This document shows positions 2 to 6,543 of a stretch of 42,793 nucleotides of DNA, piece after piece; the stretch's first letter is position 1, and every line of letters begins with the position of its first letter. This stretch comes from Bacteroidales bacterium (lineage in GTDB: Bacteria; Bacteroidota; Bacteroidia; Bacteroidales; P3): NCBI GenBank assembly GCA_017454015.1, contig JAFTDW010000014.1, forward strand, positions 1 to 42,793, read 5' to 3'. The notes under the pieces are model-generated. The model had not been told where the DNA came from. It did not search any database and saw nothing but the letters and a program-made list of their open reading frames with translations. The position numbers and the translations under genes are program-made.

Positions 2-655
2 AGCAATCCCCCTAACAGCATCAAATGGAAGGGCGACGACGACAACACCCTCATCAACGACCCCCGAGATGCACCGGCGCGCGTCCTTGCACCGAAGAGC
101 AAGGCGGACTTGGCGTTCATTATGCACTCGTTGGCGTGGTTGGCGACTAACGGAACGGCGGCAATCGTCTGTTTCCCCGGTGTGATGTATCGCGGCGGAG
201 CGGAGAAGAAGATACGGCAATACCTCATCGCGGGCAACTATGTGGATTGTATCATCCAACTCCCCGACAACCTATTCTTCGGTACCAGCATAGCGACCTG
301 CATTATGGTGTTGAAGAAGGCGAAGAAGGACAATAGAACACTATTCATAGATGCAAGCAAAGAGTGTGTCAAGATAACGAACAACAACAAACTCACCCCC
401 GAGAACATCGACCACATCGTGCAGTTGTTCGCAGACCGTAAGGATGTGCAGTATCAGTGCAAATTGGTGAGCAACGACACCATAGCGGAGGGCGACTACA
501 ACCTGTCGGTATCCACCTATGTGGAGCAAGAGGACACCCGTGAGAAGGTGGATATTGCAGAACTGAATGCACGGATAGAAAAGATAGTGGCGCACGAGAA
601 CGAGTTGAGAGCGCAGATTGACGAAATCATAAAAAGATTGGAGATTGCAGAATGA
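2..655 (+). CDS. hsdM: Type I restriction-modification DNA methyltransferase subunit (HsdM), C-terminal part
   Basis: The open frame enters from the left edge in frame 2 and gives about 217 residues. This is the C-terminal half of an N6-adenine methyltransferase that works with HsdS and HsdR. The first residues read SNPPNSIKWKGDDD, which is motif IV of the HsdM family. They are followed by APKSKADLAF, FPGVMYRGGAEKKIR, LPDNLFFGTSIATCIMVL and FIDAS, all typical HsdM blocks, and by a helical tail that would contact HsdS. The usual motif is NPPY or NPPF, and here the aromatic residue is Asn (codon aac at 14-16). The stop overlaps the next gene's start (ATGA at 652-655), which indicates translational coupling. 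The true start lies outside the window. Confidence 0.93.
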   Translation, partial: SNPPNSIKWKGDDDNTLINDPRDAPARVLAPKSKADLAFIMHSLAWLATNGTAAIVCFPGVMYRGGAEKKIRQYLIAGNYVDCIIQLPDNLFFGTSIATCIMVLKKAKKDNRTLFIDASKECVKITNNNKLTPENIDHIVQLFADRKDVQYQCKLVSNDTIAEGDYNLSVSTYVEQEDTREKVDIAELNARIEKIVAHENELRAQIDEIIKRLEIAE

Positions 656-1674
656 GTGAAATACAGAAACATACCGACACCCGTTTCATCACTGATGTAT
701 GCGCTATCATTGAGACGGGAAGGGCAAAAGCCTATTCGTCCGTCAATGCAGTTATGATAGAAACCTATTGGAACATAGGGAAAAGAATAGTGGAAGAAGA
801 ACAGCATGGAGAGGAACGCGCCACGTACGGGGAGCATGTTTTGGCGAACCTGTCTGCGGAGCTGACAAGGCGGTACGGCAAGGGGTTCGGCAAACGCTAC
901 CTCGCCTATTTCAGGGAGTTCTATCTAACCATTCCCGATTTGACAATTTTGCAAACGCGTTTGCAAAATCTCTCCTGGTCGCATATCCTTACCGCATTAC
1001 GCTGCGACAGCAATGTGGCTATTCGCTGGTATCTTGAAACTGCATCGCGTGAGATGTGGAGCGTACGAACCCTCAGTCGCAATATCGGCACCCAATACTT
1101 CGAGCGGCACCTGCGGCAGCCTCAACTGCCAATGGAAGAAGGACAACTGGACAAAATGGAGATGCTGAAAAGCCCAGTCGTAGCCGAGTTCCTTGGATTC
1201 AAGCAGGACAACAGCTTCTCCGAACAAGAGCTTGAGACCTCCATCATCAACCATTTGCAAGACTTTATCATGGAACTGGGTCGTGGATTCGCGTTCATCT
1301 CAAGGCAGCAGCTCATACGCACTGACACGCAGGACTATTATATTGACTTGGTTTTCTACAACGTAATATTGAAATGCTATGTGCTTGTGGACCTTAAGGT
1401 AGGCACCATCACCCATCAGGACGTAGGGCAGATGGATATGTATGTGCGGATGTACGACGACTTGAAACGCACTGATGGCGACAATCCCACCATCGGCTTG
1501 GTGCTGTGTTCCGAAACGAGCAAAGCCATCGCTAAATACTCCATTCTCAACGGTAGCCAACAGCTTTTTGCCGCCAAGTATATGCCCTATCTGCCGACCG
1601 AAGATGAACTGCGGCACGAGATAGAGCGACAGAAAGAAATCTTTATGCTGCAACAAAAAGAACAAGAGGACTGA
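652..1674 (+). CDS. DUF1016 / YhcG-type PDDEXK nuclease-fold protein
   Basis: This 340-residue protein has the two-part layout of the YhcG/DUF1016 family. An N-terminal helical domain (about residues 10-160) has signatures such as VNAVMIETYWNIGKRIVEEE, YGKGFGKRYLAYFREFY and LSWSHILTAL. A C-terminal PDDEXK-like domain (about 190-320) contains YIDLVFYN, a D-L-K in VLVDLKVG, and GQMDMYV. In this fold the Asp and the (D/E)xK lysine would be the metal-binding catalytic residues. The gene overlaps hsdM by 4 bases and ends 4 bases before hsdS, so it belongs to the restriction operon. The family often lies in type I restriction loci, but its role there is not settled. Nuclease activity is an inference from the fold. 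Confidence 0.88.
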   Translation: MSEIQKHTDTRFITDVCAIIETGRAKAYSSVNAVMIETYWNIGKRIVEEEQHGEERATYGEHVLANLSAELTRRYGKGFGKRYLAYFREFYLTIPDLTILQTRLQNLSWSHILTALRCDSNVAIRWYLETASREMWSVRTLSRNIGTQYFERHLRQPQLPMEEGQLDKMEMLKSPVVAEFLGFKQDNSFSEQELETSIINHLQDFIMELGRGFAFISRQQLIRTDTQDYYIDLVFYNVILKCYVLVDLKVGTITHQDVGQMDMYVRMYDDLKRTDGDNPTIGLVLCSETSKAIAKYSILNGSQQLFAAKYMPYLPTEDELRHEIERQKEIFMLQQKEQED

Positions 1675-1678
1675 CATC

Positions 1679-2944
1679 ATGGTCAAAATTGACAAACTGA
1701 CGAGCGGAGCGAGAGCAATGCAGAAACACGGTTCTGGCATTGCCGAGAGAGAAGGAAGTGGCGCGATAGCGCAACTGATACAGCAATATTGTCCGGATGG
1801 CGTGGAATATGTAAAACTCGACGAAATCGGCAGTTTCTATTCTGGGTTATCGGGCAAATCGAAGGAAGATTTTCGTGACGGCAATGCAAAGTTCATCACC
1901 TATGTAAATATTTTCAATAACCCAGCACTTAACACAGATGTGGAAGATAAAGTCAAAATAGCAGATGGTGAAAAACAAAACACCATCCAATATGGCGACC
2001 TTCTTTTCACGGGTTCTTCGGAAACACCGGATGAATGTGGTATGTGTTCGGTTTTGACACATCACACAGACGAGAAACTATATCTAAACAGTTTCTGTTT
2101 TGGCTTTCGGTTCAATGACCTATCTGATAAGAACCCTGATTTTATGAAACATTTGTTTAGGAGTTCAAGCATTAGAAAGGTTATCTGTAAGACGGCAAAT
2201 GGCGTTACAAGGTACAACATATCCAAAAAAGAGTTTGCAAAGATTGAAATCCCCCTTCCCCCACTACCCGTCCAAGAGGAGATAGTGAGGATATTGGACA
2301 ATTTTACAAATCTTGCAGCGGAGCTGCAAGCGGAGCTGCAAGCGAGGCAACAACAATACAACTATTACCGTGATACCCTACTTAATGTAGAATGTAGAAT
2401 TAAGAATGTAGAATGGCTACCAATTCCAATGTTTGCAGAATTAAAAGCAGGAAAATCGATTAAGTCAACGGAGCTGGAAGAGATAAAGAATGATGACCAC
2501 AAATATCCTTGTTTTGGAGGAAACGGGATAAGGGGATACATTGGGAAAGTGTCTCATAGTGGGGAATATGCAATTATTGGGAGGCAGGGAGCTCTCTGTG
2601 GATGTGTAAATTGGGCATCGGGAGATTTTTATGCAACTGAACATGCAGTTGTGTGCAGTCCCTTGGACAATGTAATTTCAAGATTTGTTTATTATTTATT
2701 TGCAACGGCAAACCTAAACCAATATAAATCACAGGGAGCACAACCTGGTTTATCTGTGCAAAGGTTAAATGAATTGGTTTTCCCCATCCCACCATTATCC
2801 GAACAACAACGAATTGTCTCCATCCTTGACCGTTTCGATACCCTCACCAATAACCTGTCCCAAGGTCTTCCGGCGGAGATTGAGGCACGGCAGCAGCAGT
2901 ACGAGTATTACCGAGACCAACTACTGACGTTTAAACGAATGTAG
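1679..2944 (+). CDS. hsdS: Type I restriction-modification specificity subunit (HsdS)
   Basis: This 421-residue subunit should direct HsdM and HsdR to the bipartite target sequence. It shows the family's two-half layout: target-recognition domain 1 (about residues 35-190), a conserved helical spacer (PLPPLPVQEEIVRILDNF, then ARQQQYNYYRDTLL), domain 2 (about 245-365), and a second matching spacer (PIPPLSEQQRIVSILDRF, then ARQQQYEYYRDQLL). The first 30 or so residues (MVKIDKLTSGARAMQKHGSG) precede the usual start-like QLIQQYCPDGVEY block, so an ATG at 1718 is an alternative start. Oddly, residues 236-245 (NVECRIKNVE) are encoded by a 31-bp repeat that recurs identically across the stop codon. 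The second half is AT-rich compared with hsdR. Confidence 0.92.
   Translation: MVKIDKLTSGARAMQKHGSGIAEREGSGAIAQLIQQYCPDGVEYVKLDEIGSFYSGLSGKSKEDFRDGNAKFITYVNIFNNPALNTDVEDKVKIADGEKQNTIQYGDLLFTGSSETPDECGMCSVLTHHTDEKLYLNSFCFGFRFNDLSDKNPDFMKHLFRSSSIRKVICKTANGVTRYNISKKEFAKIEIPLPPLPVQEEIVRILDNFTNLAAELQAELQARQQQYNYYRDTLLNVECRIKNVEWLPIPMFAELKAGKSIKSTELEEIKNDDHKYPCFGGNGIRGYIGKVSHSGEYAIIGRQGALCGCVNWASGDFYATEHAVVCSPLDNVISRFVYYLFATANLNQYKSQGAQPGLSVQRLNELVFPIPPLSEQQRIVSILDRFDTLTNNLSQGLPAEIEARQQQYEYYRDQLLTFKRM
2384..2414 (+). repeat. 31-bp direct repeat, copy 1 (inside hsdS linker)
   Basis: The sequence starts AATGTAGAATGTAGAATTAA and continues GAATGTAGAAT. It is identical over 31 bases to 2938-2968. Here it is read in frame as NVECRIKNVE, between the first helical spacer and the second recognition domain of HsdS. 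Its word composition is that of an intergenic repeat rather than of a conserved protein segment. Confidence 0.95.
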
Positions 2945-2968
2945 AATGTAGAATTAAGAATGTAGAAT
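2938..2968 (+). repeat. 31-bp direct repeat, copy 2 (hsdS stop / intergenic)
   Basis: This copy is identical to the one at 2384-2414, which lies 554 bases upstream. It spans the hsdS stop codon (TAG at 2942-2944) and ends one base before the start codon of the four-helix-bundle gene. It is read in a different frame from copy 1. Together the two copies flank the second recognition domain and second spacer of hsdS. Confidence 0.95.
2942..2961 (+). repeat. Left arm of 20-bp inverted repeat flanking the four-helix gene
   Basis: The bases TAGAATGTAGAATTAAGAAT are the exact reverse complement of 3322-3341. The arm lies inside direct-repeat copy 2, eight bases before the start codon of the four-helix-bundle gene. 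Confidence 0.93.
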
Positions 2969-2969
2969 T

Positions 2970-3329
2970 ATGAGAGATAACATATTATTGGATAAGAGTA
3001 AGGCGTTGGCGTTGAGAATTATACGTATGTATAAGTATTTGTGTGATGAGAAGAAAGAGTTTGTGTTGTCCAAACAAGTATTACGAAGTGGTACAAGCAT
3101 TGGGGCTAATGTTAGAGAGGCTAACCGTTCGCAATCCACAAATGAGTTTATAGCAAAATTGAATATATCCCTCAAAGAAGCCGACGAAACCCTTTACTGG
3201 CTCGAACTGCTCCACGAAAGCGACTATATAGACGATGAAGCATTCAACAGCATCTACACCGACACCGAGGAAGTACTCAAACTGCTCGTCTCCATAATCA
3301 AATCCACCAAATCCAATCTCAATTCTTAA
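2970..3329 (+). CDS. Four-helix-bundle protein (S23 / 23S rRNA intervening-sequence family)
   Basis: This 119-residue, all-helical protein carries the family signature VLRSGTSIGANVREANRSQS, followed by EFIAKLNISLKEADETLYWL and LLVSIIKS. It matches the family first known from open frames inside 23S rRNA intervening sequences and is common in Bacteroidota. Related bundles (Avd) bind nucleic acid and reverse transcriptase in diversity-generating retroelements, but no reverse transcriptase or template repeat is visible here. The gene sits between hsdS and hsdR. It is bounded by a 20-bp inverted repeat whose right arm contains its stop codon. It is AT-rich at its start. This context suggests an inserted cassette; its function is unknown. 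Confidence 0.9.
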   Translation: MRDNILLDKSKALALRIIRMYKYLCDEKKEFVLSKQVLRSGTSIGANVREANRSQSTNEFIAKLNISLKEADETLYWLELLHESDYIDDEAFNSIYTDTEEVLKLLVSIIKSTKSNLNS

Positions 3330-3341
3330 TTCTACATTCTA
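3322..3341 (-). repeat. Right arm of 20-bp inverted repeat flanking the four-helix gene
   Basis: The bases ATTCTTAATTCTACATTCTA are the reverse complement of 2942-2961. The TAA stop of the four-helix gene (3327-3329) lies inside this arm. Further copies of the word CTACATTCTA/CTACATCCTA continue to about 3366, just before hsdR. Confidence 0.93.
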
Positions 3342-3378: not shown

Positions 3379-6300
3379 ATGAATTACAACATCATAGCGG
3401 AGAACGAGGAATATACCGTAGTCAGTGAGTACGAAACCGTGTATGGGGCACCCGACCAATACCAGAGCGAGGCGGCACTTGAAAGGGATTTCATCAAGAC
3501 CCTGACGGAACAGGGATACGAATACCTACCAATCCACGAGGAGAAGGACTTGGTGGATAACCTTCGTGTGCAGTTGGAGCGACTGAACCACTACACCTTC
3601 ACCGATGCAGAATGGGAGCGTTTCTTTGGCGAGAACCTCGCGAACAAGAACGACGGCATAGAAGCAAAGACCACCAAGATACAAGAAGACTTCATTCAGG
3701 TGTTGAAGACCGACACGGGTGAGAGCAAGAACATCTACCTCATCGACCGAAAGAACATCCACAACAACTACCTTCAAGTCCTCAACCAATATGAGGAGCA
3801 CGGCGGCACACACGATGCTCGGTACGATGTATCGATCCTGGTCAATGGTTTTCCATTGGTGCATATTGAACTGAAACGGCGTGGCGTGCAACTGAAGGAG
3901 GCGTTCAACCAGATAAACCGTTATCAGCGGGACTCGTTCTGGGCGGGATGTGGGTTGTATGAGTATGTGCAGATTTTTGTCATCAGCAACGGCACCAACA
4001 CCAAATACTATTCCAACACCACCCGTGCAAACCATATCAAGGAACAGCAGCAGGGCAACCGAAACAAGACGAAGAAGACCAGCAACTCGTTTGAGTTTTC
4101 GTCGTTCTGGGCAGACAGCAACAACAAACCCATCCTCGACCTCATCGACTTCACCAAGACATTCTTCTCGAAGCATACGCTGTTGAACGTACTGACCAAG
4201 TATTGTGTCTTCACCGAAGAAAGGATATTGATGGTGATGAGACCCTACCAGATAGCGGCCACGGAACGTATCATCGAGCGCATAAGGATAGCGAACAACT
4301 ACAAGTTGTACGGCAAGATTGAGGGCGGCGGATACATCTGGCACACCACAGGCAGCGGCAAGACCCTCACCTCGTTCAAGACGGCACAGTTGGCATCACG
4401 CCTGGAATACATCGACAAGGTGTTGTTCGTGGTCGATAGAAAAGACCTCGACTACCAGACGATGAAAGAGTACAACCGTTTCGAGGAAGGGGCAGCGGAC
4501 AGCAACTCATCGACGGCGGTACTGCAACGGCAGTTGGAGAACAAGGACAAGAACGGCTCATACCACGACTACAAGATAATCATCACCACCATACAGAAAC
4601 TGTCCATCTTCGTGCAAAAGAACAAAGGACACGAGATATTCCAGAAGCACGTGGTCATCATCTTCGACGAGTGTCATCGCAGCAACTTCGGCGAGATGCA
4701 TACGGCAATAACCAAGAATTTTAAGAAATACCATCTGTTCGGTTTCACCGGCACACCCATCTTTGCAGCGAATGCAGGCACGGGCGGCAACATACAACTC
4801 AAAACCACCCAACAGGCTTTCGGCGACAAACTGCACACCTACACCATCGTCGATGCAATCAACGACGAGAATGTCCTACCGTTCCGCATCGACTATGTGA
4901 ATACCTTGAAGCAGAAGGAGGGCATACAAGACAAGCAGATTTCGGCAATCGACCGAGAGAAGGCAATGTCGGCACCCGAGCGTGTGGAAGAGGTGGTGAG
5001 GTACATCCTCGAACACTTCGACCAGAAGACCAAGCGGACATCCTACTACTCGTTCCGAACCCTGCAAAACATCAGCGAGGTGGCGAGTGCAGGACGTGGC
5101 AAGGAGGTGAAGGAAGAGAAGATGGTGCAGAAACTGCTTGGCTTCAATGCAATGTTTGCAGTGGCAACCATACCGATGGCGAAGGCATACTACAACGAGT
5201 TCAAGAAACAGCAGGCGGCATTGCCCGAAGCGCAGCGGCTGAAAGTGGCACTCATATACTCATACTGCACAAACGAAGAAGAGAACGACGGCATACCACC
5301 CGAAGAGAACCCCGAAAGCACCACCAACCTCGACCAGCAGAGCAGAGATTTCCTCGACGGCGCAATCAAGGACTACAACCAGATGGTCGGCACCAACTAC
5401 GACACCAGCAGCGACAAGTTCCAAAACTACTACAAGGACCTTTCGTTGAGGATGAAGAACCGTCAGGTGGATTTGTTGATTGTGGTCAATATGTTCCTCA
5501 CGGGTTTCGATGCAACCACACTGAACACCCTGTTCGTCGATAAAAACCTCCGTCAGCACGGACTGATACAGAGTTATAGCAGAACCAACCGAATACTCAA
5601 TTCCATAAAGACCTTCGGCAACATCGTCTGCTTCCGAAACCTTCAACAGGAGACCGACGATGCAATTGCACTGTTCGGCGACAAGGATGCAGCAAGTATC
5701 GTCCTTTTGAAAGACTTCAACTCGTACTACAACGGATACGACAAACCGAATGGAAAGCACTGTTATGGCTATTCGGAACTGGTGCAGCAGTTGATGACAG
5801 AGTTTCCCGACGGTCGTCCGGCAATAGGAGAACAGGAAGAACGGCGGTTCATCGGTCTGTTCGGAAGTCTGTTGAGGAGCATCAACGTACTGCAAGCGTT
5901 CGACCAGTTCGATGGCAAAGAGCTACTCACCGACGGTCAGATGCAGGACTACCAGTCCCACTACCTTGATTTGAGGGATAAGTGGCGCAAGAGAATACAC
6001 GTGGACAAGGAGGTGATAAACGACGACCTCATCTTTGAGACCGAACTCATCCGTCAGGTGGAGATAACCATAGACTACATCCTGATGTTGGTGCAGCAGT
6101 ACCACGACAGCAACTGCAAGAACAAGGAAATACTTGTGAGCATATCGAAGGCAATCGGGGCAAGTATGAACCTCCGAAGCAAGAAGGAACTCATCGAGAG
6201 TTTCATCGAGACCGTCAATACCGAAGAGGATGTGAATGGGGCGTGGGAGGAATATGTGAAACGGAAGAGAGAGGAAGACCTTGCAACCATCATCAAGGAA

Positions 6301-6543
6301 GAGAGGTTAAAGACGGCAGAGACCAAGAAGTTCATCAACAATGCATTCCGAGACGGACAGTTGAGAACCACCGGCACCGATATCGACAAGATACTGCCGG
6401 CAATGTCGAGATTTGGCGGCGGCGGCCTGCCTGGCTCCACAGGAGACACGGCCTGCGACCATCGTGGAGCAAACCGTAGTTATGTCAAAACGTCCGTCAT
6501 CCGAAAGTTGAGGGAGTTTTTCGAGAAATATATGGGGCTGTAA
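3379..6543 (+). CDS. hsdR: Type I restriction endonuclease motor subunit (HsdR)
   Basis: This 1054-residue subunit uses ATP-driven DNA translocation and cuts unmodified DNA. The N-terminal PDDEXK nuclease is visible as RYDVSILVNG and HIELKRRG near residues 148-168. The SF2 motor follows, with Walker A HTTGSGKT near residue 320, Walker B FDECHR near 430, motif III FGFTGTP near 455, and later motor blocks including LIVVNMFLTGFDATTLNTLF and HGLIQSYSRTNR. A helical C-terminal domain ends in REFFEKYMGL. Length is within the family's range. Near residues 1013-1035 the tail reads FGGGGLPGSTGDTACDHRG, a low-complexity stretch that looks inserted between the usual SRFGGG and VIRKL blocks. The start follows the AT-rich repeat region. 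Confidence 0.95.
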   Translation: MNYNIIAENEEYTVVSEYETVYGAPDQYQSEAALERDFIKTLTEQGYEYLPIHEEKDLVDNLRVQLERLNHYTFTDAEWERFFGENLANKNDGIEAKTTKIQEDFIQVLKTDTGESKNIYLIDRKNIHNNYLQVLNQYEEHGGTHDARYDVSILVNGFPLVHIELKRRGVQLKEAFNQINRYQRDSFWAGCGLYEYVQIFVISNGTNTKYYSNTTRANHIKEQQQGNRNKTKKTSNSFEFSSFWADSNNKPILDLIDFTKTFFSKHTLLNVLTKYCVFTEERILMVMRPYQIAATERIIERIRIANNYKLYGKIEGGGYIWHTTGSGKTLTSFKTAQLASRLEYIDKVLFVVDRKDLDYQTMKEYNRFEEGAADSNSSTAVLQRQLENKDKNGSYHDYKIIITTIQKLSIFVQKNKGHEIFQKHVVIIFDECHRSNFGEMHTAITKNFKKYHLFGFTGTPIFAANAGTGGNIQLKTTQQAFGDKLHTYTIVDAINDENVLPFRIDYVNTLKQKEGIQDKQISAIDREKAMSAPERVEEVVRYILEHFDQKTKRTSYYSFRTLQNISEVASAGRGKEVKEEKMVQKLLGFNAMFAVATIPMAKAYYNEFKKQQAALPEAQRLKVALIYSYCTNEEENDGIPPEENPESTTNLDQQSRDFLDGAIKDYNQMVGTNYDTSSDKFQNYYKDLSLRMKNRQVDLLIVVNMFLTGFDATTLNTLFVDKNLRQHGLIQSYSRTNRILNSIKTFGNIVCFRNLQQETDDAIALFGDKDAASIVLLKDFNSYYNGYDKPNGKHCYGYSELVQQLMTEFPDGRPAIGEQEERRFIGLFGSLLRSINVLQAFDQFDGKELLTDGQMQDYQSHYLDLRDKWRKRIHVDKEVINDDLIFETELIRQVEITIDYILMLVQQYHDSNCKNKEILVSISKAIGASMNLRSKKELIESFIETVNTEEDVNGAWEEYVKRKREEDLATIIKEERLKTAETKKFINNAFRDGQLRTTGTDIDKILPAMSRFGGGGLPGSTGDTACDHRGANRSYVKTSVIRKLREFFEKYMGL

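Follow-up and report, generated by a model that had tools for sequence, protein, structure and literature searches.

Seven-base-pair repeat arrays in a type I restriction specificity gene and around the adjoining IVP gene of a Bacteroidales bacterium

The specificity gene (hsdS) of a type I restriction locus in a Bacteroidales bacterium (GenBank assembly GCA_017454015.1, contig JAFTDW010000014.1) carries the same 31-bp repeat in frame in its interdomain linker and again across its stop codon. We analyzed the stretch of 42,793 nucleotides that holds this gene (herein the window) and found that 7-bp units of the form NAGAATN, arranged as a tandem array, make up the repeat and that a third, inverted copy follows the neighboring IVP-family gene; both features go beyond what an initial annotation of the same DNA had seen. 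The reading to which we give a probability of roughly 0.6, and which we consider more likely than a dedicated two-state switch, is that the layout is a by-product of spreading arrays with a potential for one-way rearrangement: the second copy and the inverted array would be the arms of an IVP unit, and the first copy would be the same array seated in the hsdS linker. This reading is supported by the replacement of the linker, by bracketed IVP units here and elsewhere, and by the recurrence of the window layout at a second locus (L070/L177).

Arrays and genes of the window

The features of the locus are listed in Table 1. Both the S and the R subunit most resemble the type IC (EcoR124) family; the best solved chain for HsdS is the EcoR124 S subunit (7bst, E = 9.8e-35), and HsdR carries the EcoR124_C domain. 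The 12-bp TAEL-type repeat of the type IC family is present in helix 1 as two AELQ repeats; seven relatives have two or three each. In EcoR124 the TAEL repeats set spacing, according to the accessible text of PMC3874165. The window hsdS is full length, with no natural truncated form at the locus. A search of the assembly with the window HsdS as query gave no second complete hsdS, only a partial one at the end of contig C45, and hsdR has a single match in the assembly. The C45 region (L091:4879-7093) holds a second hsdM (88% amino acid identity) together with the partial hsdS at the contig end. No recombinase gene is present among 13 window proteins scanned, a subset of the open reading frames (ORFs) of a contig that starts within hsdM.

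Table 1. Features of the restriction locus in window coordinates
Feature	Position	Strand	Remarks
hsdM, 3' part	2..655	+	PF02384; contig starts inside gene
DUF1016/YhcG PDDEXK nuclease-like gene	652..1674	+	PF06250, PF17761; between hsdM and hsdS
hsdS	1679..2944	+	PF01420; 421 aa, two recognition domains, type IC-like
Two AELQ (12-bp) repeats and AR	2318..2347	+	in helix 1; site of EcoR124 TAEL repeats
Array copy 1	2384..2414	+	four 7-bp units, in frame in hsdS linker, residues 236-245 (NVECRIKNVE)
Segment predicted to be lost by recombination of copies 1 and 2	2384..2937	+	554 bp with one array copy and the second recognition domain and helix
Array copy 2	2938..2968	+	identical to copy 1; hsdS stop codon inside; putative left arm of IVP unit
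IVP-family four-helix-bundle gene	2970..3329	+	PF05635 23S_rRNA_IVP (E 1.7e-29), TIGR02436; 119 aa
Inverted array	3313..3341	-	29 nt; putative right arm of IVP unit
hsdR	3379..6543	+	PF04313, PF12008 EcoR124_C

Copies 1 and 2 are identical at 31 of 31 nucleotides. The identity stops at the repeat edges, and the flanks on either side do not match. What had been annotated for the pair is confirmed: a site in frame in the linker, a site at the stop codon (TAG, 2942 through 2944) and a start-to-start spacing of 554 bp. The identity suggests a recent exchange between the copies; alternatively, it could stem from selection for recombination. At up to three mismatches, the 21-nt core of the repeat has three occurrences in the window, where 100 dinucleotide shuffles give an expectation of 0.00. 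Across the 2.3-Mb assembly (93.9% complete), the array at up to two mismatches is found only at the three window sites, and a longer pattern at up to three mismatches adds a fourth array, directly upstream of hsdM on C45; all four arrays found in the genome thus lie within type I restriction loci.

Copy 2 and the inverted array enclose the IVP gene as complementary arms; the inverted array is 90% complementary to copy 1 over 29 nt and 92% complementary to copy 2 over 25 nt. RNA folding pairs copy 2 with the inverted array (z = -2.14); in a longer RNA piece copy 1 pairs with it instead (z = -0.78), the whole being no better than shuffles. An IVP (S23p) ORF within complementary arms is also the arrangement of the 23S rRNA IVS, and the window unit (2938 through 3341, about 400 nt) shares it; the Coxiella IVS is given as 428 nt with a 28-bp stem in the available portion of PMC4990558. 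Unlike the 23S rRNA IVS, the window unit lies outside rRNA, between hsdS and hsdR, and its arms consist of 7-bp repeats. We propose that the unit is built like an IVS; copy 2, as its left arm, supplies the hsdS stop codon just ahead of the IVP start codon. A locus from another family of the order (L246), sampled for its resemblance to the window unit, has an HsdS-domain gene whose TGA stop lies inside a different heptad array, directly followed by an IVP gene and then by an inverted array before an HsdR-domain gene.

The linker array is absent from all seven close relatives with a readable linker (C45/L091, L042, L043, L044, L046, L048 and L051; HsdM and HsdR at least 87% identical at the amino acid level where present, C45 being judged on HsdM only). 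In place of the window's NVECRIKNVEW they have a linker of the LLSFEGREDVQW type, SF-x-GR-x-DV[EQ]W, and in the five that were aligned it is shorter by one residue. Helix 1 matches helix 1 of the relatives at 90 to 98.6% nucleotide identity over 64 to 70 nt, and the match ends at position 2382, one base before the array. The array has thus taken the place of the ordinary linker and made it one residue longer. A model of HsdS from six sequences (mean pLDDT 67), which matches known HsdS structures, places the array residues between the end of a helix (212 through 235) and a strand (245 through 248) at the start of the second recognition domain; a position in this loop, past helix 1 and ahead of the second recognition domain, is probably why the array is tolerated. 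Copy 1 would then be the same array, set in frame in place of the ordinary linker and derived from another array copy by local recombination or gene conversion. A seed in the form of microhomology shared by the array and ordinary linker DNA was considered and rejected as weak (p = 0.01 for one of five linkers and 0.10 to 0.40 for the others, against base shuffles).

Helix 2 matches helix 2 of the relatives at 85.8 to 94.8% nucleotide identity (six of the linker set and L047; the C45 hsdS is cut before helix 2). In four of the seven the match reaches 2934 to 2935, two or three bases before copy 2, and in three it ends sooner. Since each helix matches the same-numbered helix of the relatives, the gene was already two-domain when the arrays came in. 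This contradicts the half-gene duplication offered by the initial annotation; such an event would have doubled helix, array and domain. An array does follow the YYRDxLL helix end in both halves, but the 31-nt match has no extension on either side and the two-domain gene predates the arrays, so that we regard a duplication scar as very improbable. The accompanying idea of a captured intergenic repeat came close, copy 2 forming one of the arms of the IVP unit; the duplication half of that claim did not stand.

Two of the relatives, L042 and L046, have an array in frame at the hsdS N terminus, followed by a stretch resembling its inverted partner. The window hsdS has an N-terminal insertion (1679 through 1790; TSGARAMQK...GAIAQL) resembling that of L044, and at the same site L043, L048, L051 and C45 read MGKIDELIQQYC or near it. 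Judged by these sequences, the insertion site appears to be another tolerant boundary of hsdS. The interval between hsdS and hsdR also varies: a TIGR04258 four-helix-bundle suffix gene occupies it in five of seven relatives (L043, L046, L047, L048 and L051), where it is longer than the window IVP gene and lacks AGAAT arms; L042 has no four-helix-bundle gene there, and L044 has another gene.

A second locus and the predicted deletion products

Deletion between copies 1 and 2 in silico reproduced the junction of the initial annotation, a subunit of about 246 residues in which NVECRIKNVE is followed by Leu: the predicted product has 246 aa, ends NVECRIKNVEL and stops at TGA (2971 through 2973). 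Two 12-nt registers in the window would give a 360-aa fusion and a product of 248 aa, respectively.

A second natural case comes from a Bacteroidales metagenome-assembled genome from horse feces (G190; L177, which is L070 with wider flanks). L177 has one array in the hsdS linker (NVDCRMQNVEW) and one across the hsdS stop. Its IVP gene is 83% identical to that of the window, with HsdM at 64% and HsdR at 60%; the recognition domains differ. The unit of hsdS tail, array, IVP gene and array pair is present twice (94% identity over 611 columns), followed by a third hsdS tail. In this genome TAGAATGTAGAAT, at one mismatch, has 27 matches, 22 of them at the locus; the reversed pattern has 5 in all. 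A Schlafen/AlbA-domain gene lies between the two unit copies and an integrase gene upstream of hsdM (L177:12335-15050 and 3670-4932). The window aside, the 27 loci read after a search of the order for the L070 linker peptide (393 genomes, 20 with a match) contain no other AGAAT array.

Seven of nine registers in L177 are predicted to give a half subunit upon deletion, and two a half-HsdS/IVP fusion. The nearer array offers six registers (12 to 15 nt), which give four half subunits (209 to 211 aa) and two fusions (335 and 342 aa), the best register (15 nt) leading to a fusion; with the distant array, 3 kb on, all three registers (15 to 22 nt) give half subunits of 209 to 216 aa. The half subunits have 11 to 18 residues after helix 1, and two of the nine products end NVDCRMQNVEL, 11 residues past helix 1, the counterpart of NVECRIKNVEL in the window. 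A half subunit is therefore the outcome common to both loci, which favors the reading of the initial annotation. An array that carries stops in most registers and ends at the IVP start would also give this outcome without selection.

The two-state specificity switch proposed in that annotation would use recombination at the 31-bp repeats to produce a 246-residue half HsdS that dimerizes and recognizes a palindromic target. The repeats are exact and the predicted product is clean, and in L177 the registers with the same kind of outcome include the longest match (22 nt). The precedent invoked, half-size HsdS subunits of some type I enzymes that work as dimers, is borne out by the part of PMC3874165 at hand, which describes the type IC homodimers EcoR124I delta50, EcoDXXI deltaC and the natural NgoAV; these go back to an engineered deletion, a Tn5 insertion or a fragmented gene. 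According to the accessible text of PMC7394358, NgoAV HsdS varies between full-length and truncated forms, and Furuta et al. 2011 (PMC3077401, seen in part) report two TRDs becoming one at flanking repeats. The window product belongs to the same family and would end after helix 1, before TRD2; unlike the known half-size subunits, it is a predicted form whose appearance would require that arrays recombine. A deletion of this kind between direct repeats, however, goes one way only unless the second domain returns from elsewhere, and the search with the window HsdS found no second complete gene in the assembly to restore it. There is no deleted form among the loci read, the nearer pair in L177 gives a fusion in its best register and one other, and the linker array is missing from all seven close relatives. 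Inverting phase-variable loci have duplicated hsdS genes with inverted repeats (PMC7394358, in the text available); the window has no second variable hsdS with inverted repeats. One-way loss leading to a half-size subunit is plausible in both the window and L177, given the type IC cases and the seven of nine L177 registers; the reversible half of the proposal finds neither a deleted form nor a restoring copy, and we judge a two-state switch to be unlikely.

The boundary arrays might instead act as a joint for domain exchange, as in DOMO, letting whole recognition domains swap between alleles or loci. Arrays are found at three boundaries of hsdS, namely the N terminus (L042, L046), the linker and the 3' end (window, L177); related helices carry unlike domains; and L177 has tandem copies of hsdS tail and IVP gene. 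With the first half of the HsdS of L045, which belongs to another system and not to the same locus, the window TRD2 shares 50% identity. DOMO hsdS genes likewise have repeats beside their recognition domains, but there, in the accessible part of Furuta et al. 2011 (PMC3077401), repeats x and y flank both TRDs, whereas only TRD2 is flanked in the window, and by 7-bp arrays. No array precedes TRD1 in the window, the domains of the relatives differ without linker arrays, and no pair of loci was found that shares a domain between matching arrays. We consider domain exchange an unlikely account.

Against the spread of arrays as the explanation stands the fact that linker and 3'-end arrays occur in two diverged systems, the window and L177, with the same 11-residue tail, which has the look of a maintained switch; array stops in most registers may also give this tail. 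The arrays seen in hsdS, including the N-terminal ones of L042 and L046, all sit at module boundaries, which is more orderly than random spread needs; selection against insertion within domains could produce the same pattern. The pair of copies may at low frequency lose the second recognition domain and leave a half-size subunit.

IVP units and dispersed arrays

Arms of period 7 are common beside IVP genes. Among 79 IVP loci (L094 through L154, L070 through L090 and L246; not independent, with near duplicates L079 through L081, L127/L128 and L137/L138), a period-7 array of any unit lies within 200 bp on the upstream side of 32, a count that leaves out the N-run L150, and on the downstream side of 36; 43 have an array on at least one side, and 25 of them have two, one on each side. 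Control sets gave 1 upstream and 4 downstream for 147 other ORFs and 0.4% for random 212-nt segments; other periods were seen at no more than 3 loci, one of them an N-run, and in base shuffles there were none. By sample, arrays on either side occur in 25 of 28 window-like, 9 of 29 Pfam-ranked, 8 of 19 genome_contigs and 1 of 3 other loci. The window unit falls just below the strict threshold (0.8095 vs 0.81), and L070 and L112 were omitted for short flanks. Bracketed loci come from Bacteroidales, Treponema, Clostridia-type, Verrucomicrobia and Kiritimatiellae records; the Treponema unit adjoins a gene read as putative sugar-acid metabolism.

The repeat unit varies by locus (e.g., GAAAGCG, TAGTGGG, AAGGTGA, GAACGGA, GTAAAGT), and the arms of one locus are reverse complements of each other, with a mean score of 26.1 against 7.1 for arms of other loci and 5.9 for direct repeats. 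This comparison covers 18 of the 26 both-arm loci (L080, L081, L130, L133, L134, L138, L139 and L150 were left out). The inverted score exceeded the direct one in all 18, the closest case being 26 vs 19; in 16 the own partner arm was the best match, and no arm of another locus was as good. Such joint variation of the two arms from locus to locus suggests that a stem, of RNA or of DNA, is important.

AGAAT units are a narrower group. Counting AGAAT units alone and leaving the window aside, 9 of 29 window-like IVP loci in the genus have an array within 250 bp; the upstream arrays are direct in 5 of 5, and downstream arrays are inverted in 8 and also direct in 1. None of the 30 top-scoring PF05635 loci has one. 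Over the wider family, 78 of 190 genomes carry the array (longer pattern, three mismatches), although some genomes also match the reversed control.

Arrays inside ORFs of at least 150 aa number 11 of 33 and 12 of 37 in two samples, below the 84% ORF coverage of the second. All eight array-bearing ORFs scanned in the first sample hold known domains (a ninth, L032, was left out): pantoate ligase, LigA, thiamine pyrophosphokinase, a Mur-ligase-type synthase, M3 peptidase, NAD-dependent epimerase, rhamnosidase and UbiE. Two of these enzymes, pantoate ligase and thiamine pyrophosphokinase, bear an array again in the second sample (L213, L215), each in two genomes; the loci with in-frame heptad arrays in housekeeping enzymes are L013, L016, L018, L019, L026, L028, L029, L034, L213 and L215. 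In-frame arrays are thus not peculiar to hsdS in the genus, and their presence in unrelated genes weakens the idea of a linker copy selected for switching. Rickettsia palindromic elements are likewise repeats lodged in frame in housekeeping genes, though of different sequence and lineage.

An IVP gene lies near 3 of 59 sampled array loci, against 0.35 expected, and near none of 20 GAAAGCG loci; as the majority of the sampled arrays have no IVP gene close by, spread of arrays by the unit is no more than a possibility. AGAAT array counts show no difference between genomes with and without an AGAAT-armed sampled IVP gene (9 vs 20 genomes, Mann-Whitney p = 0.51). GAAAGCG arrays reach 395 in genome G026, 338 in G112, 216 in G045 and 170 in G017 and are absent from 72 of the 120 genomes counted (L257 and L263 are among the loci). 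Sampled IVP genes are bracketed by GAAAGCG in G026 (L138) and G045 (L137). IVP units as the source of dispersed arrays were set aside, GAAAGCG arms being absent from four of seven IVP matches in G017, one of three in G112 and two further ones in G026, although resident arrays and IVP arms may still be linked. A virus was rejected as the source of the array, with no viral contig carrying the 27-nt pattern and no relative of the window IVP among viral contigs. Short tandem 7-bp arrays are also known elsewhere, in the form of the TAACTGA heptanucleotide direct repeats, which have another sequence than those of the window; as far as the text of PMC4679880 was available, these occur in Beggiatoaceae, cyanobacteria and some Bacteroidetes, frequently a short way ahead of start codons, and that text mentions neither IVP genes nor the term "intervening".

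The literature searched, with its texts in part and subscription papers mostly outside it, holds no description of 7-bp arms around IVP genes or of such arrays in hsdS. We put forward tentatively, as a possibility somewhat short of even, that these are undescribed, widespread IVS-like units outside rRNA, in which a four-helix-bundle gene sits between complementary, locus-specific 7-bp arrays. Such units would recur at the hsdS 3' end. Their array could also come to sit in the linker, which would make a TRD removable, its loss leaving a half-size, possibly palindrome-recognizing subunit. Recombination at boundary arrays, if it occurs, would allow a restriction system to give up or exchange half of its specificity in a single event. 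The broader pattern of complementary 7-bp arrays on the two sides of IVP genes opens a way to test ideas about a gene family that is common but whose role is unclear.
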